The translations under genes and the position numbers were made by a program. Source: a virus. Taken from it: a stretch of DNA of 44,783 nt. The DNA is taken from IMG/VR virus record IMGVR_UViG_3300048834_000376, positions 1-44,783 of that record; one strand, written 5' to 3'. The notes beneath the pieces are model-generated. The model had not been told where the DNA came from. It saw only the letters and a program-made list of their open reading frames with translations, and searched no databases. Numbering within the stretch: the first letter of the stretch is position 1; the number at the start of each line of letters is the position of its first letter. Shown here piece by piece: positions 133-33,181 of the stretch.

Positions 133-165
133 TATCGAGGACTAAACACTAACCTGGAGGATATG

Positions 166-777
166 ATGTCTGGGACTTTCGACTTCGGAGACGGCAAGGG
201 ATCGGTTCCCGCCCACAAGCACCCGAACGGCGCCGGGTGGGTAGCCGATACGGCGGCCGCTGATGCTTCCGCTTATGTCGGCCCCGACGCCGGGGTGTAC
301 GGCAACGCCAGGGTGTACGGCAACGCCGGGGTGTACGGCGACGCCAGGGTGTACGGCAACGCCGGGGTGTGCGGCAACGCCAGGGTGTACGGCAACGCCA
401 GGGTGTACGGCGACGCCTCGGTGTACGGCGACGCCTCGGTGTACGGCAACGCCGGGGTGTACGGCGACGCCAGGGTGTACGGCAACGCCGGGGTGTGCGG
501 CAACGCCAGGGTGTACGGCAACGCCAGGGTGTACGGCGACGCCTCGGTGTACGGCGACGCCAGGGTGTACGGCGTGATGCGTTCGGACGGGTATGCTTTT
601 ATCGCGCTGCTCTGCGAGGACGGCCAGGTCCGCGTGATCGCCGGATGCCGCTACCTGACTTTCCCGGAAGCCCGCGAACACTGGAAACACCGAGCCGGGA
701 CGCCCCTCGGGGACGAGACGGACCTGATCCTCGATTTCCTTGAAGCGTCGGTGAAGATCAAGGGATATGGAGGCTGA
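166..777 (+). CDS. Hexapeptide-repeat (left-handed beta-helix-like) protein
   Basis: This protein of about 203 residues is dominated by 16 tandem hexapeptides of the form V-Y-G-[N/D]-A-[R/G/S] (residues 44 to 139), the last one degenerate. Valine at position i and alanine at i+4 is the spacing of inward-facing residues in left-handed beta-helix folds of the bacterial transferase hexapeptide type. This suggests a rigid prism of about five coils. A non-repetitive N-terminal cap (about 43 residues) and a C-terminal domain (from about residue 140, with a RVIAGCRYLTF stretch) flank it. No catalytic residues are recognised. Two ATGs stand in tandem (163 and 166). The second gives the 5-base spacing from GGAGG seen in other early genes, so I chose it. 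The gene is early and its function is unknown. Confidence 0.8.
   Translation: MSGTFDFGDGKGSVPAHKHPNGAGWVADTAAADASAYVGPDAGVYGNARVYGNAGVYGDARVYGNAGVCGNARVYGNARVYGDASVYGDASVYGNAGVYGDARVYGNAGVCGNARVYGNARVYGDASVYGDARVYGVMRSDGYAFIALLCEDGQVRVIAGCRYLTFPEAREHWKHRAGTPLGDETDLILDFLEASVKIKGYGG
295..582 (+). repeat. 18-bp tandem repeat array coding hexapeptides
   Basis: Sixteen units of 18 bp start at 295. Units 2 to 8 (313..438) and units 9 to 15 (439..564) form a second-order duplication of 126 bp, identical over its first 123 bases. Such an exact repeat sits just under the apparent k-mer length of 127, so the true copy number could be larger than assembled. Confidence 0.95.
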
Positions 778-7661: not shown

Positions 7662-8008
7662 CTGGAGAACGCTGGTACAGGATTGATGATCGGTTGTACT
7701 CGGTGGCGAACGAGTGGGGCGAGCATGACTACAGTTACCAGGACGTGCATCTGACGGAGTTTCCCGTCGTGAGGCACACCCCTCGGGGTGTCTGGGTCGA
7801 CACCGGGTTCGGTTACCTTCGGTGGGTCAGCCACGGTGCCCGGAAGCGGTTCGCCTGCCCGACGATCGAAGCGGCATTAGAGTCGTTCGTCGCCCGCAAA
7901 GACAAGCAGGCCGCCATTTATGATGCGCGGGCTAACTGGGCGCGTGAGGCGAAGGCAAAGGCTTTGGGAAAGTGGCGAGAAAGAGGCGGCGCTACCCAAA
8001 TTGGGTAA
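7658..8008 (+). CDS. Hypothetical early protein, 116 aa
   Basis: The start is a GTG at 7658 overlapping the helicase stop (GTGA). The product is rich in aromatic residues in its first 75 positions (RWYRIDDRLYSVANEWGEHDYSY, then RGVWVDTGFGYLRWVSHG), suggesting a small beta fold. It ends in a basic helix (ANWAREAKAKALGKWRERGG). No family is recognised. The stop codon lies within the palindrome at 7993..8007 that precedes the next promoter. Confidence 0.65.
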   Translation: MTGERWYRIDDRLYSVANEWGEHDYSYQDVHLTEFPVVRHTPRGVWVDTGFGYLRWVSHGARKRFACPTIEAALESFVARKDKQAAIYDARANWAREAKAKALGKWRERGGATQIG

Positions 8009-8044
8009 TCAGGTGTTGACAATATTGTTTCACCTATCTAGCTT
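7993..8044 (+). promoter_or_regulatory. Palindromic operator and sigma70-like promoter for the recombination operon
   Basis: TACCCAAATTGGGTA (7993..8007) is a perfect 7-bp inverted repeat around a central A. Nine bases later comes TTGACA (8016..8021), and 17 bases after that TAGCTT (8039..8044). The element TATTGTTTCACCTA (8023..8036) recurs exactly upstream of 43129. The downstream gene starts at 8069 with CGGAGG as its ribosome binding site. A repressor on the palindrome would sit next to the -35 box. Confidence 0.65.
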
Positions 8045-8068
8045 AACAGCATCAACGGAGGAACCAAC

Positions 8069-8872
8069 ATGGCTCAGGTAACAGGCGGCAAGGTCGTCTA
8101 CTCTCGCAAGGTCCAGGCCGCGCAGTACGAACCCAAGGACGCGACCGTCGAACTGTCGTTCTCGATCGACGAGGGCGAGCGCGACTACGAGAGCTTTCTG
8201 GACCAGGTCGCCAACGCGGCCGTCGTCAAGGTCCACACCATGATCGGCCTCGCGATGCCGACGCTGAAGGCGTCGATGGAATACCAGTTCACGCCCAACG
8301 ATGGCGCACTTCCCGCCGAGGGAACGACGGACCCTTCCGAGCGTACTAAGGATGATCTGGCGGCCGAGAAGATCGCCGAGGTCACCGACCCGGCATCCAT
8401 CGAGCCGAAGCCGGAACGCAAGAAGCCGGGCCGCCCGCCGAAGGTGAACAAGGATCCCGATCCCGCTGCCCTCAGCCCCTCTGGGGATACAGCGGAGGCC
8501 CCAGCCCAGGCGGATGCAACCGTCAGGTCGACTGAGGCCAAGCCCGACCCGTCTGTCATCACCGCCGAGTCCCCCTCGGGAGAGGGCGGCGGGTCGGGGA
8601 CCATCACGGCGGATGATCCCGCCCAATCGGGAGCGCGGAGCGACACGACCGATCCCGCCTCCCTTGGCGGCGCCGAGGAATGGGAAGCCACCCCGCCCCC
8701 GTTGACGGACGCCGAGGTGCTGTCGGCGATCACGCGCACCAATGCGCGGGTCATGCAGCCCGAGGCGATCAAGCAACTGGTCTGGAAGTTTGCCGGCAAC
8801 CCGCCGAAAACGTTCCGGGACATACCCCTGGAAGTGCGCCCCACCTTCGTCGCCGAACTGGAGGCGCTTTGA
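8069..8872 (+). CDS. Hypothetical protein with AT-hook-like motif and disordered middle
   Basis: This is the first gene of the operon that also holds the DUF2800 and DUF2815 genes. Residues 1 to about 75 are ordered (YSRKVQAAQYEPKDATVELSF, then helical). Residues about 80 to 210 are low-complexity Pro/Asp/Ala/Ser rich, with RKKPGRPPK at about 117..125, an AT-hook-like core that could touch the DNA minor groove. The last 55 residues are helical (LTDAEVLSAITRTNARVM, LVWKFAGNPPKTF). The position beside single-strand binding and nuclease genes suggests a recombination or replication accessory role, by inference only. No family is recognised. Confidence 0.75.
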   Translation: MAQVTGGKVVYSRKVQAAQYEPKDATVELSFSIDEGERDYESFLDQVANAAVVKVHTMIGLAMPTLKASMEYQFTPNDGALPAEGTTDPSERTKDDLAAEKIAEVTDPASIEPKPERKKPGRPPKVNKDPDPAALSPSGDTAEAPAQADATVRSTEAKPDPSVITAESPSGEGGGSGTITADDPAQSGARSDTTDPASLGGAEEWEATPPPLTDAEVLSAITRTNARVMQPEAIKQLVWKFAGNPPKTFRDIPLEVRPTFVAELEAL

Positions 8873-14217: not shown

Positions 14218-14681
14218 AGATCATCGCCATCGATGTCGGCTCCAACATGGCTCTCGCCCACAACTGTGCGCCGGGAAGGCCGCCCGTCGTGGTCAGTGAA
14301 TCGTTCAAGGGCACCCGTGAGGTTCGTGCTGCGGCTACCATGGACTGGCTGCTGGAATGGTTTGACGCCATCCAGGTTTGCCACCATGCCGACGCTGTCG
14401 TCTATGAGAGGCCCTTTGCCCGTGGCCGGGACGCTACCAGATCCCTGTGGGGCCTCGCCGGTATCATCGAGGCGGCAGCCACAAGAGCCGGGATGGCCGT
14501 CCTCGACGTCGAGAACCAGACGCTGAAGAAGTTCGCCACGGGCAACCGAAAGGCGTCGAAGGAGCAGATGATCGAAGCCGCCCAACTCATGGGCTACACT
14601 GGCAACAACGAGCATGAGGCCGATGCGTGGTGCCTCCTGCAATACGCAACGGACAGGGTGCAATGGGAAAGCAAGAACTAG
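14214..14681 (+). CDS. RuvC-like Holliday junction resolvase
   Basis: The 155-residue product has the RNase H-fold resolvase pattern: IIAIDVGSNMALAH with Asp7, AVVYERPF with Glu65, and a C-terminal NEHEADAWCLL with Glu135 and Asp137. These acidic residues bind the two metal ions that cut branched DNA. Phage enzymes of this type resolve recombination and replication junctions before packaging. The start is the ATG at 14214 overlapping the preceding stop. A longer frame (14133) would lie inside the previous gene. Confidence 0.85.
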   Translation: MKIIAIDVGSNMALAHNCAPGRPPVVVSESFKGTREVRAAATMDWLLEWFDAIQVCHHADAVVYERPFARGRDATRSLWGLAGIIEAAATRAGMAVLDVENQTLKKFATGNRKASKEQMIEAAQLMGYTGNNEHEADAWCLLQYATDRVQWESKN

Positions 14682-14920
14682 ACCCCGATCTCCGGGACCT
14701 TCGGCATACCCTGTCGGAGAGGATCAAGGAAGCCCGGCGCACGCGCGGTCTGACCCAGGGCCAGCTCGCCGAAGCCATGGGCGTGCCGCGGTCGCTGGTC
14801 AACCGGCTGGAGCGGGGCTCCCGTATCCGGGACGTGATGACCGCCACCTCCCTGTTCCGGGTCGCCAAGGCCCTGGGCATGAAGCTGAAGATCGAGTTTG
14901 TCGAGGAGTGGGAGGCTTGA
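14663..14920 (+). CDS. XRE-family helix-turn-helix regulator 1
   Basis: The 85-residue product has an XRE/Cro-type helix-turn-helix at residues about 20 to 75: IKEARRTRGLTQGQLAEAMGVPRSLVNRLERGS. It closes with LGMKLKIEFVEEWEA, a tail shared with its neighbour. The start ATG 14663 lies within the resolvase end. Such proteins repress or activate phage promoters; HigA-like antitoxins look similar, but no toxin gene is adjacent. A plausible target is the TACCCAA-TTGGGTA palindrome found three times in early control regions (inference). Confidence 0.85.
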   Translation: MGKQELDPDLRDLRHTLSERIKEARRTRGLTQGQLAEAMGVPRSLVNRLERGSRIRDVMTATSLFRVAKALGMKLKIEFVEEWEA

Positions 14921-15123
14921 GCGCCGGCAACGCTATTCGCGCGGCGCGTACAAAGGTCGGCTGGTCCCAGGACGCGCTGGCCGCTTCACTCGGCACGTCG
15001 CATCAACTCGTCAGCAAGTGGGAGAACGGCCGCGTATTTCCCCGGATGCCGACCATGCAACGCATTGCTGATCTTCTCGGCATGGACCTGAAGATCGAAT
15101 TTGTGGAGAAATCCGATGGATAA
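14917..15123 (+). CDS. XRE-family helix-turn-helix regulator 2 (tandem paralogue)
   Basis: The 68-residue product begins at TTG 14917, overlapping the previous TGA. It is almost wholly a helix-turn-helix domain: IRAARTKVGWSQDALAASLG, then SHQLVSKWENGRVFPRM, ending LGMDLKIEFVEKSDG. The order of motifs and the LGM-x-LKIEFVE tail repeat those of the gene just upstream, so the two arose by duplication and could form homo- or heterodimers. The TTG start and tight overlap suggest low, coupled expression. Confidence 0.8.
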   Translation: MSAGNAIRAARTKVGWSQDALAASLGTSHQLVSKWENGRVFPRMPTMQRIADLLGMDLKIEFVEKSDG

Positions 15124-15430
15124 GCAGTTGGCGGACGCTTTGGAAAAAGCGAAGGCGTGGATGGCAACGGCTTCCGATTCCGAGAAAGAAGCTATGTGGC
15201 AGGCCCAGCGAGAAAGCTGGGCGCGCGGGAACTCGGGTTGGGACGAGGGGACCACGCGGATAAAGCCCGACCATGCCGAACCCGTCGTCACGGCCCGCTT
15301 CGAAACCTACGGCCGGCCGGTCGACATCCTGCGCGGCGGGCACGTCATGGTGAAGGTCCGCTACCGGGATGAGGCGTGGCAGCTTCTGGAGACGCTGATC
15401 AAGGCGTTTCCGGGCCTGCCGGATCGTTGA
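15116..15430 (+). CDS. Hypothetical protein, 104 aa, last plus-strand gene
   Basis: The ATG at 15116 overlaps the end of the second regulator by 8 bases and has GGAG about 7 bases upstream. Residues 1 to 45 are helical and charged (DKQLADALEKAKAWMATASD). Residues about 60 to 85 look like beta strands (VVTARFETYGRPVDILRGG, HVMVKVRYR). The 3' end overlaps the oppositely oriented Rz-like gene by 32 bases, so the early and late blocks converge without a spacer or visible terminator. No family is recognised. Confidence 0.65.
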   Translation: MDKQLADALEKAKAWMATASDSEKEAMWQAQRESWARGNSGWDEGTTRIKPDHAEPVVTARFETYGRPVDILRGGHVMVKVRYRDEAWQLLETLIKAFPGLPDR

Positions 15431-15926
15431 CGGCCTTCACGGCTGCGTCATACTGGGCGTAGCACTGCTTGAGGGCGAGCCGGAGGGTGTCGGCTCGCTG
15501 AGCTTCCCGTCTAAGAAACTCGCCGTCGTCCCGATAAAGCTCCCTTCCAGTGCAGAAGCGTTGACCTTGGCCAGCGGGGGCAGTTGCGGCGGCGCCGGGT
15601 ACTGCGGCGGGGCGGGCGGGACGGTTGAGCAGGAGGCCATCGATACGGCGATTGGCAGCACCAAGAGCCGCAAGCGCATCAGCCTCCCGTTGTTTGGACA
15701 GAACGATTTCCTCAGCAAGACTTTGCTCCTTTCTGCGATTGGCTTTTTCGGCGGCGTGGAGGGCCGCCAGGGCCTGTCTGTCCCGCTCGGCGTATTCCGC
15801 CCTCACTTTCGCCTCACGGCGATCAGCGGCCCTGTCCGTGACGAAGGAGTAGGCCCCGGCGAGGAGCCCAAGACCAAGTGCGCCTGCCGCGATCCTGATC
15901 AGCAGTCCTGCCGGGATGCCCCACAT
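15399..15926 (-). CDS. Rz-like i-spanin
   Basis: The 175-residue product has an N-terminal signal-anchor helix (LLIRIAAGALGLGLLAGAYSFV, residues 8 to 29) followed by a long charged coiled coil (about 30 to 95: DRREAKVRAEYAERDRQALA). The C-terminal part has two Cys. This is the inner-membrane subunit of a Gram-negative two-component spanin, which joins inner and outer membrane in the last lysis step. The nested outer-membrane partner lies in another frame at 15437..15679, the classic Rz/Rz1 arrangement. It closes the lysis cassette. Confidence 0.8.
   Translation of the reverse strand: MWGIPAGLLIRIAAGALGLGLLAGAYSFVTDRAADRREAKVRAEYAERDRQALAALHAAEKANRRKEQSLAEEIVLSKQREADALAALGAANRRIDGLLLNRPARPAAVPGAAATAPAGQGQRFCTGRELYRDDGEFLRREAQRADTLRLALKQCYAQYDAAVKAVNDPAGPETP
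15437..15679 (-). CDS. Rz1-like o-spanin lipoprotein, nested in Rz-like gene
   Basis: The 80-residue product from ATG 15679 lies entirely inside the Rz-like gene in another frame. It starts with MRLRLLVLPIAVSMASC, a short signal peptide ending in a lipobox-like cysteine at position 17. A proline-rich stretch follows (STVPPAPPQYPAPPQLPPL), the hallmark of Rz1. The longer in-frame start at 15718 would put 13 residues before the signal peptide and is less likely. The lipoprotein would sit in the outer membrane and bind the Rz-like coiled coil. Confidence 0.75.
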   Translation of the reverse strand: MRLRLLVLPIAVSMASCSTVPPAPPQYPAPPQLPPLAKVNASALEGSFIGTTASFLDGKLSEPTPSGSPSSSATPSMTQP

Positions 15927-15927
15927 G

Positions 15928-16206
15928 CTACTTCTCCACGAAGTGAGAGCAGTAATATTCAGCGGGTTTGGAGATGTTTTCCCACACGGGATTCAGCGTG
16001 CAGTACCCGTAAAAGTCGCTGCGCGCGTCTGTACTCGGATACGCATCTTGGTAGCGGCGGCAGCGAAGGCATCTTCCGGCACCGGCATTCAGCATGAACT
16101 GGCTATGCCGTTCGGCTTTCTCATCCGCTTGCTTCCACCCCTCATCGCGCGCCTTGCGACGCTCTCGGGCGGCTTCGCCGGGAGACACCCATCCGAAAAT
16201 ACGCAT
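15928..16206 (-). CDS. Small cysteine-containing hypothetical protein, 92 aa
   Basis: The gene lies between the pilin-like gene and the Rz-like gene, one base from the latter. The product has a basic helical N-terminal half (PGEAARERRKARDEGWKQADEKAERH) and a C-terminal half with four cysteines: RCLRCRRYQDAYP, YGYCTLNP and YYCSHFVEK. The spacing CxxC-C-C could bind a metal or form disulfides. The C-terminal pattern is like that of small phage proteins next to lysis genes, but no family is recognised. Confidence 0.6.
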   Translation of the reverse strand: MRIFGWVSPGEAARERRKARDEGWKQADEKAERHSQFMLNAGAGRCLRCRRYQDAYPSTDARSDFYGYCTLNPVWENISKPAEYYCSHFVEK

Positions 16207-16208
16207 GA

Positions 16209-16358
16209 TCAGACCTGGGTGCTGACTGTCTCGAACAGCGTACTCAGGTTGCCGCCGAGGGTTTCAAGGGCGACGACCAGGGCCACGGCGATCAATGCCG
16301 CGATCAGGCCGTACTCGATGATCGTCACGCCGGCGCGGTCGTGGATGAACTGGCGCAT
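16209..16358 (-). CDS. Flp/Tad-type IVb pilin
   Basis: The 49-residue product reads MRQFIHDRAG, then VTIIEYGLIAALIAVALVVA, then a short tail LETLGGNLSTLFETVSTQV. This is the complete pattern of a Flp pilin: a charged leader ending in Gly10 as prepilin-peptidase site, Glu at +5 and Tyr at +6 of the mature chain, one hydrophobic helix and a GxNLSTLF tail. Bacterial Flp pilins build Tad pili and serve as phage receptors. AGGGAG lies 6 bases before the ATG, and the gene sits between two late genes. The family is clear. Why a phage carries it is not (decoy, plug or repurposed membrane protein). Confidence 0.85.
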   Translation of the reverse strand: MRQFIHDRAGVTIIEYGLIAALIAVALVVALETLGGNLSTLFETVSTQV

Positions 16359-16359
16359 G

Positions 16360-16602
16360 TCATACTCCCTGCCATGCTTCGATCGCGGCTTTCGTAGCCG
16401 GGACCATGGTGTGCCACCACTCGTCGACCATGCGCCGGGAGGCGGGGTTCATCACCAGCCACGCGGCGCGGGCCGGCAGCTCGTATTTCTCCAGGTCCTC
16501 GACGGAGATCGGTTCGTCGAGGCCGGGCATGATCTTCTTCGCAGGCTCGTTGACGGGCTCGATCACTTCGACGGGCCTGGCGTTCGGTATGCCTCTGGGC
16601 AT
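16360..16602 (-). CDS. Hypothetical protein in lysis cassette, 80 aa
   Basis: The start chosen is ATG 16602, with AAGGA 7 bases upstream. An in-frame ATG at 16620 is an alternative. The product has a proline-rich N-terminus (MPRGIPNARPVEVIEPVNEP) and a helical, Trp-rich C-terminal half (RAAWLVMNPASRRMVDEWWHTM). It overlaps the transglycosylase gene by 40 bases and ends one base before the pilin start, so all three are in one operon. No family is recognised. Confidence 0.6.
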   Translation of the reverse strand: MPRGIPNARPVEVIEPVNEPAKKIMPGLDEPISVEDLEKYELPARAAWLVMNPASRRMVDEWWHTMVPATKAAIEAWQGV

Positions 16603-17219
16603 GAAATGGTCCTTCCCCATTTGGTGTAGTTGAACTGTCGTTGATACAGGATGCGCCGCGGGTAGTCGCGGTTTTCCTTCATGGCCCAAGCAGCACGTCG
16701 AGAATGTTTCTCGACATGCCCGAACCATCGGTCGGGCTCGCAGCCGGCCGCACTTCCACACAAACGACGGTCCCGAGTGACCCATCCAGGTCCACCGTTG
16801 TACCCTGATAGAGTGAAACCGAAACGGTCGCATTCGCTGGCACTCGGCACAGCGGTATCGAAGATTCGCCGGTTATAGGTAACCAGCGCGCGAATAGCCC
16901 ATTGTGGATTAAAGGGGTCTCTATCGCCGAGTTCCTTCGGGTACGCGCCGCTGATCCAGTCGGCAGTCGCGGGAGTGAACTGGGCCAGGCCGCAGGCGAA
17001 AGGGGAACACACCTTCGGACGCCACGCGCTTTCCTGCTCGATCTGGCCGGCGAACAGGGCGATGGGAGCATCGAGGCCCCAGACGGCCCGGGCTTCGCGG
17101 ATGACGTCCCGCTTGTATTCGAGGGAGGCGCGCGGCTCGGCGAAGGCAGCCTGTCCCGTGCAACCGGCGAAGGTCAGGAGCAGGATGCAGATGCCGAACA
17201 GGTCCGAGCGCCAGGTCAC
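16563..17219 (-). CDS. Lytic transglycosylase (SLT-type) endolysin with lipobox/signal anchor
   Basis: The 218-residue product has a hydrophobic N-terminus ending in LTFAGC (Cys20), a lipobox or signal-arrest-release-like segment. A goose-lysozyme/SLT fold follows: IEQESAWRP with catalytic Glu63, GLAQFTPATADW (77..88) and FTLSGYNGGPGWV. It would cut peptidoglycan glycan strands in the periplasm during lysis. The frame is open back to 17354, but the GTG at 17219 overlaps the stop of a 29-residue gene (GTGA) and begins the signal peptide. It sits just after the holin candidate. Confidence 0.85.
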   Translation of the reverse strand: MTWRSDLFGICILLLTFAGCTGQAAFAEPRASLEYKRDVIREARAVWGLDAPIALFAGQIEQESAWRPKVCSPFACGLAQFTPATADWISGAYPKELGDRDPFNPQWAIRALVTYNRRIFDTAVPSASECDRFGFTLSGYNGGPGWVTRDRRLCGSAAGCEPDRWFGHVEKHSRRAAWAMKENRDYPRRILYQRQFNYTKWGRTISCPEAYRTPGPSK

Positions 17220-17305
17220 GGGTTGCCCATGGTTTTCATGTAGATGAAGCCGAGCATCCCGGCGGCGCCGAGGGCGAGGCCAATCCCCAGCCCGAGCCAG
17301 AACAT
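17216..17305 (-). CDS. 29-residue membrane microprotein in lysis cassette
   Basis: ATG 17305 overlaps the TGA of the holin candidate (TGATG), and its TGA (17216..17218) overlaps the GTG of the endolysin. The peptide is one hydrophobic helix (WLGLGIGLALGAAGMLGFIYM, residues 3 to 23) plus a short basic tail (KTMGNP). The double overlap shows it is translated in step with both lysis genes. It could be an antiholin or second holin, an inference from place and shape only. Confidence 0.6.
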   Translation of the reverse strand: MFWLGLGIGLALGAAGMLGFIYMKTMGNP

Positions 17306-17595
17306 CAGACGGCCAGTGCGAAGGCGAGGATCGTCGAGCCGACGATGATCGCACGGCGGATCATGGCGTTGCGCTGGTCGATGTTGTCACGCATCTTGTC
17401 CGGCCGCGCATAGGGAAAGATCGCCCGGTCGATGCGGTAGCCGAGGAAGCCGCCGAGGGTGATCAGGGCGCCCTTCAGGATGATGACCGGAAGCTGGACC
17501 GGCGAGATCAGGTAGATGACGACCAGGAGGATGATCGCCGGCAGCAGCAGGGACCCGGCGCGAAGGTGCAGCCGTCCCTTGGTCATTACGGGCAT
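17305..17595 (-). CDS. Putative holin
   Basis: The 96-residue product has two hydrophobic segments: LLLPAIILLVVIYLISPVQL (16..35, running into VIILKGALITLGGFLG) and AIIVGSTILAFALAV at the C-terminus. A cytoplasmic loop between carries RIDRAIFPYARP and DNIDQRNAMIRRA. This YRIDR...FPYARP loop resembles a class of putative phage holins. Such proteins form membrane holes that release or activate the endolysin, whose gene follows. GAGGA lies 5 bases before the ATG. The holin function is inferred. Confidence 0.75.
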   Translation of the reverse strand: MPVMTKGRLHLRAGSLLLPAIILLVVIYLISPVQLPVIILKGALITLGGFLGYRIDRAIFPYARPDKMRDNIDQRNAMIRRAIIVGSTILAFALAV

Positions 17596-17606
17596 GATGG
17601 TCCTCG

Positions 17607-18038
17607 TCAGAGTTCGTCACACGTTGGCGGGATATATTCTCGCCCTGTTATGGCCTTGTAGTCAAGCTGCGCTTCTTCGAGGTGCCGCCGGGTGCTGGCC
17701 TTCAACGCGGCGTCGCGGTCGTTGATGGCCGCGCACTGCTCCCGCCTCGCGGTCAGGATGTCCTCGCGGATCTGGCGGCCCTCGATCCGGGCGAGCTGGT
17801 TCTTCATGGTGCTGACGGCGGGATTGACGTCGCCGGCGAGGGCGAAGCCGGGGATGCCGAAACTGGCAAGGGCGCCGCAGGCGACGGCGATATGGAGGGC
17901 AAGGGCCGCTCCGAGGCCGGACAGATACATGACGATCCTCCAGTTATGCCGGTAGACTTCTTCCGGCGGGGCGTCCGGGGGAGGCGGCGCAAGCCAGCGG
18001 AAGATCGCCGGAACGGCCGCCACTGCTTTGTCCCACAT
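17607..18038 (-). CDS. Membrane-anchored coiled-coil protein, 143 aa
   Basis: Residues 1 to 33 include PPPPDAPPEE, then a hydrophobic segment (IVMYLSGLGAALALHIAVACGALASF, about 35 to 60) followed by a charged helix with heptad spacing (MKNQLARIEGRQIREDILTARREQC). The C-terminus has Cys in IPPTCDEL. It opens the lysis cassette, 12 bases before the holin candidate. A periplasmic coiled coil after one membrane pass is spanin-like, but the Rz-like gene is found elsewhere, so the role is open. Confidence 0.65.
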   Translation of the reverse strand: MWDKAVAAVPAIFRWLAPPPPDAPPEEVYRHNWRIVMYLSGLGAALALHIAVACGALASFGIPGFALAGDVNPAVSTMKNQLARIEGRQIREDILTARREQCAAINDRDAALKASTRRHLEEAQLDYKAITGREYIPPTCDEL

Positions 18039-31061: not shown

Positions 31062-31352
31062 TTACTCGAACGGGATATTCGCCACCACGCCGTAGACCGC
31101 CGTCGCCGTCGTGACCTCGATCCGGTACTGGCCGGCGGGCAGGTAGAGCGGCGAGAAGAAGCCGTCGGCCGCGAAGTCGCCGTCAGGGATGTCGAGCCAG
31201 GTGGTGCCGTCGATCGACAGGGCCTGAAGCTGGATGTCGCCGGTACTCCACGTCGCGTTGGCCGACATGGAATACATGCCGCCCTGAAGCTGGAAAGGCG
31301 CGGTCGTGGCGGAAATGTTCGAGAACTGATAGGCGTCAGTCGCTTCGCTCAT
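31062..31352 (-). CDS. Hypothetical beta-rich structural protein, 96 aa
   Basis: The small beta-sandwich-like protein overlaps the Gly-rich protein before it by ATGA and lies 12 bases from the tail tube gene. Residues about 45 to 80 (LQALSIDGTTWLDIP, LYLPAGQYRIEV) echo the C-terminal end of the Gly-rich protein (DDWIDVSIPVIGDY, VALPPGTYRFAAN), so the two may share a domain. It is probably a virion decoration or fibre accessory. No family is recognised. Confidence 0.65.
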   Translation of the reverse strand: MSEATDAYQFSNISATTAPFQLQGGMYSMSANATWSTGDIQLQALSIDGTTWLDIPDGDFAADGFFSPLYLPAGQYRIEVTTATAVYGVVANIPFE

Positions 31353-33181
31353 AGGGGGCCTCTCCGGAACACACGAACAAGGGTGATGGCGGGGGTCCCG
31401 ACTACGTTCGCGGCGAACCTGTAGGTCCCGGGAGGCAGAGCCACGGTCGTATCATAGTCGCCGATGACCGGAATTGAAACATCAATCCAGTCGTCGCCCG
31501 GGATCTGCTGCTGGAGCAGGATCACTAGTCCGGGGTCCGGGTGAAGGACACGAAATGAATACCATCCCCCGAGCAGATAGAAAGCTTCCACCGTTACTAC
31601 GATGGGGCCTCCCGTCGTTGCTACCCCGAGCAGCATCGCGGGGTCGGCGTCAAGCTCGCCGGTCATGGTAAGAAGCTTCGGGGGAATCACGACAAGGCCG
31701 CTGACGGAAGCGCTCCCGGCAACCAGGACACCTGTGATATCCCGTGCGATTTTCATGTCGCCGGCGACGGACGCCGCACCCGCGTCCAGATCACCAGTCA
31801 TCCGCAATCCGAGGAACGCCGCACCAGTAACGGAAGCGGGGCCGGAAACGAGAGCGCCGTTCAACATCCTGTCAAACGCCATAACGCCACTGACTGACGC
31901 CGTTTGCGAGACGAGCGCGCCGGTCATAGACAGGTCAAAATACAGCGCGCCGGCTACCGACGCTGCTCCTGCCGCAAGAACGCCGGTCATGGGGTGCTCA
32001 AGCTCAGCGGCGCCCGCGACCGTGGAAGGCTGCGCGGTAAGAACACCTGTCAACGGATGCTCCAGTTCCGCCGCGCCTGCAACCGTGGCTGCCTGCGCCA
32101 GAAGCACGCCTGTCATAGGATGCACGACTTCGAGGGTACCGGACGCAGCAGCCGCCGGAGAGCTGAGAGCGCCGGTCAAGGTGACGGTAGCACCACTTGT
32201 TACGGTGTACGTAATGACGATGATGCCCTGAGCACCGTTGCCGCCGTTACCTTCAAAATTGCTTGAGATGGGGCCGCCGCCACCAGCGCCACCGCCGCCG
32301 TACAGGCCGCCCGCGCCACCAGCACCGGCGAGCGTGTTGAGCGCTGAAGGACTAGCAGAGCCGCCACCGCCGCCGCCGCCCGCACCTGCTACCGCGCTGT
32401 CGCTAGTCTGGGTGTAGTCGGCTCCAGGGCCGCCCGCTCCACCGGCAAAGCCAGCCCCGGCAGCAGGCTTAAACCCGCCACCGCCACCACCGCCTACGGT
32501 TCCCGCCCCACCTACGCCCGAACCGGACCCGGTGCCCGAACCTGCTCCAGCCGCGTTGTTGCCACCGTTGCCGCCCGTTGTTCCAGTCGATATGCTGCCC
32601 GCCGCACCGTTGGTCCCGGAAGCGCCCCCGCCGCTACCTCCGCCACCGTTGCCGCCGTTGGTAGAACCACTATTGTCCGCGCCAGCGCCACCGTTGCCGC
32701 GCTGCCCCGCCGCAGCACCGCCGCCCGCACCTGCCCGCAGAGCGGCACCGCTAACACCACCGTTACCGCCGGAATACTTGGTGCTACCAACGCCCGATGC
32801 AGACGCGCCGCCCGCACCACCTCCGGCAGCCGTACCACCCGCCCCGCCCTTCGCCAGCGCGCCCTGCGAGGTAAGCGTGGGCGCGGCATTGGACGTGCCG
32901 TTGAACCATGTATCCCCGCCCGTGCCGCCATTCGCACCGGAAGAAGCGCCGCCAGCGCCGCCCGCCCCTATCTGATAGTAGACTGTCTGCGAGGCAGACA
33001 GGGACCTGTCGCTGTCCGTGATCTTGGAATATGCGCCGCCGCCGCCGCCACTACCGCTGGCTGTCGAACCGCGCCTGCCACCACCACCAGGTCCTATGAC
33101 CTCGATTGTCCATGGGTCGCCAAAGTCCGATGGCAGTGACCCGCTTGTACCGGATGTGAGAAATATGACCTTAGTAGTCAC
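31349..33181 (-). CDS. Glycine-rich fibre/adhesin with 21-residue repeats
   Basis: The 610-residue product has three parts. Residues about 25 to 325 are extremely Gly-rich (GPGGGG, GAGGAGG), like polyglycine II sandwiches in phage receptor-binding adhesins. Residues about 333 to 520 hold about eight 21-residue repeats of the form MTGVLxAxxATVAGAAELEHP. The last 80 are a small beta domain (DDWIDVSIP, ALPPGTYRFAANVVG). The start is GTG 33181 overlapping the previous stop (GTGA). It is likely a tail fibre or adhesin displayed for receptor binding. Confidence 0.7.
   Translation of the reverse strand: MTTKVIFLTSGTSGSLPSDFGDPWTIEVIGPGGGGRRGSTASGSGGGGGAYSKITDSDRSLSASQTVYYQIGAGGAGGASSGANGGTGGDTWFNGTSNAAPTLTSQGALAKGGAGGTAAGGGAGGASASGVGSTKYSGGNGGVSGAALRAGAGGGAAAGQRGNGGAGADNSGSTNGGNGGGGSGGGASGTNGAAGSISTGTTGGNGGNNAAGAGSGTGSGSGVGGAGTVGGGGGGGFKPAAGAGFAGGAGGPGADYTQTSDSAVAGAGGGGGGGSASPSALNTLAGAGGAGGLYGGGGAGGGGPISSNFEGNGGNGAQGIIVITYTVTSGATVTLTGALSSPAAAASGTLEVVHPMTGVLLAQAATVAGAAELEHPLTGVLTAQPSTVAGAAELEHPMTGVLAAGAASVAGALYFDLSMTGALVSQTASVSGVMAFDRMLNGALVSGPASVTGAAFLGLRMTGDLDAGAASVAGDMKIARDITGVLVAGSASVSGLVVIPPKLLTMTGELDADPAMLLGVATTGGPIVVTVEAFYLLGGWYSFRVLHPDPGLVILLQQQIPGDDWIDVSIPVIGDYDTTVALPPGTYRFAANVVGTPAITLVRVFRRGPL
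31620..32190 (-). repeat. 63-bp tandem repeats coding 21-residue units
   Basis: About eight units of 63 bp code for the pattern (M/L)TGxLxxxxxxVxGxxxxxxx within the Gly-rich protein. The first two full units are most alike (AQAATVAGAAELEHP and AQPSTVAGAAELEHP). The rest have drifted, so the array grew by stepwise duplication. Boundaries are approximate. Confidence 0.7.

Follow-up and report, generated by a model that had tools for sequence, protein, structure and literature searches.

A lone Flp-type prepilin gene among the lysis genes of a tailed phage, and its possible role in pilus receptor control

In many bacteria, Tad pili act as adhesins and surface sensors and also serve phages as receptors. 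What is a gene for a pilin of this type doing in a phage, packed between genes for host lysis? The gene lies in the IMG/VR record IMGVR_UViG_3300048834_000376, one viral contig of 44,783 bases that encodes a family A DNA polymerase and was analysed over its whole length (the window).

The pilin gene and its lysis cassette

The open reading frame at 16209-16358 (minus strand; 150 bases, 49 aa, 39 aa when mature) translates to MRQFIHDRAG/VTIIEYGLIAALIAVALVVALETLGGNLSTLFETVSTQV (full chain MRQFIHDRAGVTIIEYGLIAALIAVALVVALETLGGNLSTLFETVSTQV). It matches the Pfam model Flp_Fap (PF04964) with 62.4 bits against a curated cut-off of 32.2 (E 3.4e-17) over profile positions 1-45 of 46, and across the entire record the model matched at this single location. 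Among solved structures, those of Tad pilins come nearest: Caulobacter PilA 8u1k (the closest) and 8u2b. The leader MRQFIHDRAG (16329-16358, minus strand) has its predicted cleavage point after Gly10, and the junction MRQFIHDRAG/VTIIEY puts Gly at position -1 and Glu5 and Tyr6 in the mature chain, where the latter two are encoded at 16311-16316 (minus strand). A hydrophobic helix of about 20 residues (best 19-mer IIEYGLIAALIAVALVVAL, mean hydropathy 2.6) follows without a globular domain, and the tail reads GGNLSTLF. The Shine-Dalgarno-like AGGGAG (16365-16370, minus strand) stands 6 nt ahead of the ATG. Judged by profile, leader, Glu5/Tyr6 and helix, the gene encodes a complete Flp/Fap (Tad) prepilin. 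The first-pass annotation, made from the letters alone, had proposed such a pilin with Gly10, Glu5, Tyr6, a hydrophobic core, a GxNLSTLF-type tail and a good ribosome binding site; all of this is confirmed, the match to a Flp/Fap profile that it had suggested looking for included.

The surrounding genes form a run on the minus strand. It starts with a putative protein of 143 aa, likely with a single membrane helix (17607-18038), upstream of a holin of the Holin_2-3 family (17305-17595; PF13272 E 3.3e-20, phrog_1528 E 4e-23) and a 218-aa endolysin with the SLT transglycosylase fold (16563-17219; PF01464 E 1.4e-7, phrog_669 E 1e-47) that is 53% identical to the endolysins of Pseudomonas phages JBD25, Ps59 and kin. 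An open reading frame for a soluble protein of 80 aa (16360-16602; 68 aa from an inner start at 16566) comes next, with its stop 1 nt ahead of the pilin ATG; after the pilin, the ATG of a 92-aa Cys-containing open reading frame (15928-16206) sits 2 nt past the pilin stop. The run closes with a 175-aa Rz-like i-spanin (15399-15926; phrog_312 E 1.6e-4, phrog_1327 E 2.7e-4) and, inside it in another frame, an Rz1-like o-spanin (15437-15679) recognised by eye from an SMASC lipobox and a Pro-rich start. The 80-aa protein has no match in Pfam, PHROGs or viral contigs, and searches of the same three with the 92-aa protein gave no relatives. By its predicted content (holin, SLT endolysin and Rz with an embedded Rz1-like gene) this is a genuine lysis cassette and not a chance arrangement. 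A promoter scan of the region gave one weak minus-strand candidate, ahead of the holin (17665-17636, 9/12); a scan of another viral contig, L095, gave none.

It had been proposed at the outset that the pilin is phage-encoded, tightly arrayed with the lysis genes and expressed late. The first two parts stand, with gaps of 1 and 2 nt in an operon-like run; the third would be expected from position only. No isolate is known for the record, which consists of one assembled contig, and host DNA misjoined to a phage contig might produce a stray pilin gene. The 1-2 nt gaps to phage open reading frames on both sides, together with the phage-like third-position GC (0.88 against a phage mean of 0.80, sd 0.08, about 1 sd off), make such an artefact very unlikely, and no further tad genes came up in the 44.8-kb record, T2SSE motor ATPase and Peptidase_A24 prepilin peptidase included; we give a misjoin next to no weight.

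With its single membrane helix and its place between endolysin and spanins, the pilin might serve lysis itself and adjust its timing, as an accessory holin, an antiholin or a membrane perturber. A holin and a spanin pair are already present in the cassette, however, and PHROGs gave no convincing family for any of the phage pilins: the only match of the window pilin was to phrog_5975 (unknown function, E 0.31), with no PHROG lysis family, and one relative matched a holin family at E 0.06.

Relatives without the gene and unrelated phages with it

At 48% identity, the terminase of the window phage resembles those of RHph_N2 and related Rhizobium phages. Its pilin has Burkholderia pilins as nearest tree neighbours among those of hosts; the best match among plasmid records (63%) is a Burkholderia pyrrocinia pilin in a tad locus, adjoining prepilin peptidase and cpaB, and pilins of Devosia, Bosea and others are 57% identical. 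As host hints, the sequence affinities of terminase, endolysin and pilin disagree and indicate no single host.

Three other features of the window were noted. Two overlapping tandem genes at 14663-15123 (plus strand) encode what look by eye like different small XRE-like regulators, in a phage without a detected integrase. Close to one end of the record, 163-777 (plus strand) encodes a protein with VYGNARVYGDA-type repeats that resembles a left-handed beta-helix (hexapeptide repeat). The 610-aa protein encoded at 31349-33181 (minus strand) has a Gly-rich half and, after it, LTGVLxAxxxxVAGAAELEHPM-type units in tandem.

None of 46 records found through the portal protein, many of them fragments, has a Flp_Fap match, and the pilin is absent from six lysis regions inspected among these portal-related records, so the same gene in the same place, a check proposed with the original observation, was looked for and not found. 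It is also absent from Rhizobium phage RHph_N2, which is among the nearest by terminase, and from Pseudomonas phage Ps59, which is among the nearest by endolysin. Searches for the same lysis region elsewhere gave two distant contigs with the endolysin as query, both lacking the pilin, and no other contig with the 80-aa and 92-aa neighbours; the holin as query had no match in 50 viral records. Given these absences, and the location of most phage pilins away from lysis genes, the idea that a pilin is a normal part of the lysis cassette is not supported. In one related record (G031; L137:5024-5998), an integrase-like gene, recognised by eye, directly follows the lysis genes.

Two scans of viral contigs found a Flp pilin gene in 30 others, in unrelated contexts. 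Pfam confirmed all 10 of the pilins tested, which were drawn from different groups of the 30 contigs; two of the 30, L091 and L096, look by eye like bacterial DNA and may not be phage. The pilin neighbours terminase genes in L094, L097, L104, L107, L111, L112 and L115, and beside the terminase of L112 there are two Flp pilin genes in tandem (7965-8153 and 8254-8418). Replication or recombination genes are the neighbours in L099, L106 and L110. In L005 the pilin gene (7989-8171, plus strand) lies within an array of tRNA genes that run there on the minus strand; this region (L005:7132-12359) comes from a 128.9-kb viral record, IMGVR_UViG_2920292642_000002, with 26 tRNA genes within 16 kb. An endolysin or likely endolysin is found within about 2 kb of the pilin in at least 3 of the 30 contigs: in L002 the gene is flanked by a tail-fibre gene on one side and an endolysin on the other, in L003 a phage endolysin is 1.7 kb away, and in L108 a phrog_3108 gene, likely an endolysin, is near. 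These three cases speak for a helper of lysis, but most phage pilins are not near lysis genes. Judged by gene neighbourhoods, the lone Flp pilin is a recurrent gene of unrelated phages and not a constant of lysis cassettes. A tblastn search with three pilins against 50,697 named-phage records at permissive limits found none, a weak negative, plasmid pilins having reached only E values of at least 0.07.

No T2SSE ATPase and no Peptidase_A24 was detected in the 31 pilin-bearing records; any pilus must therefore rely on host machinery. Many of these contigs are temperate-like, with an integrase in 7 of the 30 and, in the L093-L105 group, the pilin on the strand opposite to the terminase. This accords with lysogenic conversion, in which a 'moron' cargo gene would supply an additional or modified Tad pilin to the host, of benefit in adhesion, biofilm or surface sensing, and its place in a lysis cassette would be incidental. 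Two papers also list Flp pilins among the genes of prophages (PMC12482185, PMC12429752). For the temperate pilin-bearing phages, simple lysogenic conversion explains the gene no less well than receptor control. In the window record, however, no tyrosine integrase was detected, and its pilin is packed among lysis genes, where expression in a lysogen is not expected; as an account of this gene we consider lysogenic conversion unlikely.

Assembly residues and selection on phage pilins

Glu5 and Tyr6 are kept in 30 of 30 other viral pilins, with Gly (27) or Ala (3) at position -1. Host pilins are alike, with Glu5/Tyr6 in 80 of 80 and Gly in 76 and Ala in 4 at -1. The initial scans used patterns containing Glu-Tyr and were thus open to bias; a scan for the helix only, with a pattern that starts after Tyr6, found 14 pilin loci, all in contigs already known and all with Glu-Tyr. 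The first-pass annotation had held that failure to match the Flp profile, or loss of the Gly-x4-Glu-Tyr pattern in relatives, would mark an ordinary small membrane protein. The profile matches, and the Glu-Tyr pair persists in every phage pilin of both sets (30/30 and 14/14).

In the structure of the Tad pilus, Glu5 and Tyr6 make core hydrogen bonds that are crucial for assembly, not for expression or processing (PMC11067988). Since these are assembly-only residues, the phage pilins look selected to polymerise, beyond residing in a membrane or being cut. The conservation favours pilus entry over a mere membrane or lysis helix, for which the pair and the cleavage Gly would be unneeded, and on balance we regard a role as lysis helper as distinctly unlikely. 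It also bears on a possible decoy, an abundant late prepilin that does no more than tie up the prepilin peptidase or insertion machinery of the host. An intact leader and cleavage Gly are what such a decoy would need, but processing does not require the Glu5/Tyr6 that is kept as well (PMC11067988), and we see only a slim chance that occupying the peptidase is all the protein does.

A tree was built from 80 host pilins and the 28 distinct ones of phages, on few columns and with many unresolved forks. On it the phage label has to change 12 times, and supported branches force at least 3 of these changes, which points to repeated capture and more than one origin. The window pilin and the L114 pilin form a pair (support 99/86), and the two phages have no other protein in common in the comparison made. 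Phage pilins are under purifying selection, with dN/dS mostly 0.1-0.3 and dS near saturation in many pairs: values are 0.08-0.45 in the L092-L103 clade (pairs with finite dS) and 0.14-0.16 in the L106/L108/L110 clade. In this last clade the pilins are 77-84% identical and the neighbours are unrelated except for one shared at 31%, so the pilin appears to have been kept or exchanged independently of its surroundings. Together this suggests that phages repeatedly take and keep a host pilin. The three phages of this clade (L106:7998-8150, L108:7983-8144, L110:7953-8135) have a GC of 45-63%, and their pilins all have Ala instead of Gly at -1.

The gene in the window could instead be a recent passenger, a host pilin gene acquired by chance and so far functionless in this phage; its absence from the relatives checked would suit that, as would a dN/dS of 0.55, from few sites, between the window and L114 pilins. 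Yet the reading frame is intact, has its Shine-Dalgarno-like site and is tightly coupled on both sides, its codon use is phage-like, and it groups with the L114 phage pilin, not with a host copy. We find a functionless passenger quite improbable.

Receptor control and known systems

The reading that we prefer, at a probability of roughly 0.45, is that of receptor control by a captured, working prepilin, which would join the host's Tad pilus and change or jam it. A Flp prepilin gene would have been taken from a bacterial tad locus and have landed in a tailed phage, between its endolysin and spanin genes, to be translated together with the lysis genes. The product would go to the host inner membrane, be cut by the host prepilin peptidase and join the host Tad pilus, or the pilin pool, as a foreign subunit. 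Produced late and in large amounts, this short, tail-less subunit might then alter, cap or jam the pili, and the infected cell and its debris would stop capturing pilus-binding phages, the phage's own progeny included. We infer late expression, processing and pilus entry; the benefit, receptor control, is a guess. Phage PhiCb5 attaches to the Tad pilus at exposed residues of the pilin and at its C terminus (PMC11067988), and pili are targets both of phages and of the Pseudomonas phage proteins Tip, Aqs1 and Zip, the last of which benefits progeny (PMC11656802). The receptor-control step is argued by analogy with these cases.

Delivery of the pilin late, along with the lysis proteins, would suit a role in shielding progeny from the pili of the dying cell, though the time is short. 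Other points weigh against receptor control: a Tad pilus in the host is assumed, expression from a late lysis operon would leave little time to act, and relatives of the window phage manage without the pilin. Against a poisoning of the pilus in particular, a mature length of 39-40 is also found among host pilins, and no poison-like difference was seen. In a wider form, the idea is that tailed phages repeatedly capture a host Tad subunit and build it as a copolymer into the pilus, which would thereby be capped, jammed or re-coated; in this phage the dose would come late, with the lysis genes. This we hold as doubtful, if worth stating. We know of no phage protein shown to act as a pilin copolymer. 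If true, receptor control by a captured pilin would offer an explanation for lone prophage pilins labelled 'virulence factors'.

In profile, leader, Gly at -1, Glu5/Tyr6, helix and size the window protein is like other Flp/Fap pilins (type IVb/IVc, Tad) such as Caulobacter PilA. These are usually linked to tad assembly genes, whereas the window pilin is a solitary gene in a phage lysis operon, and such genes were not detected in the record. The cassette of Ps59 has the order holin, small membrane protein, endolysin, small ORF and a membrane protein at the Rz place; it lacks a pilin, and the small ORF after its endolysin is by eye unlike the 80-aa ORF.

Our literature search found no functional test, cross-phage survey or lysis-cassette case of a phage Flp pilin; subscription papers were mostly outside it, and priority is uncertain. 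Phage-carried Flp pilins have already been listed, without function, in two papers, and the position in a lysis cassette is apparently new, if not certainly so. Lone Flp pilins are listed in the Vibrio harveyi prophages phi345 and phiGANI1709 (PMC12482185) and in Sinorhizobium phiLM21-like prophages (PMC12429752). They are likewise lone pilins in tailed phages, but these are prophages, the pilins appear as a virulence factor or a COG entry, and the passages on them mention neither a place in a lysis cassette nor a test of the assembly residues (PMC12482185, PMC12429752).

The closest functional parallels are Tip, Aqs1 and Zip, which likewise give phages control over a pilus receptor, with a similar possible benefit in superinfection exclusion or the sparing of progeny (PMC11656802). 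Searches of Pfam and PHROGs with the window pilin gave no family of their type. Those proteins bind PilB or PilZ of type IVa pili, whereas the window protein is itself a Tad-type pilin (PMC11656802). Known anti-pilus phage proteins bind the motor or its partners, and a phage that carries the pilin itself would, if our reading is true, have a new way to control its receptor.
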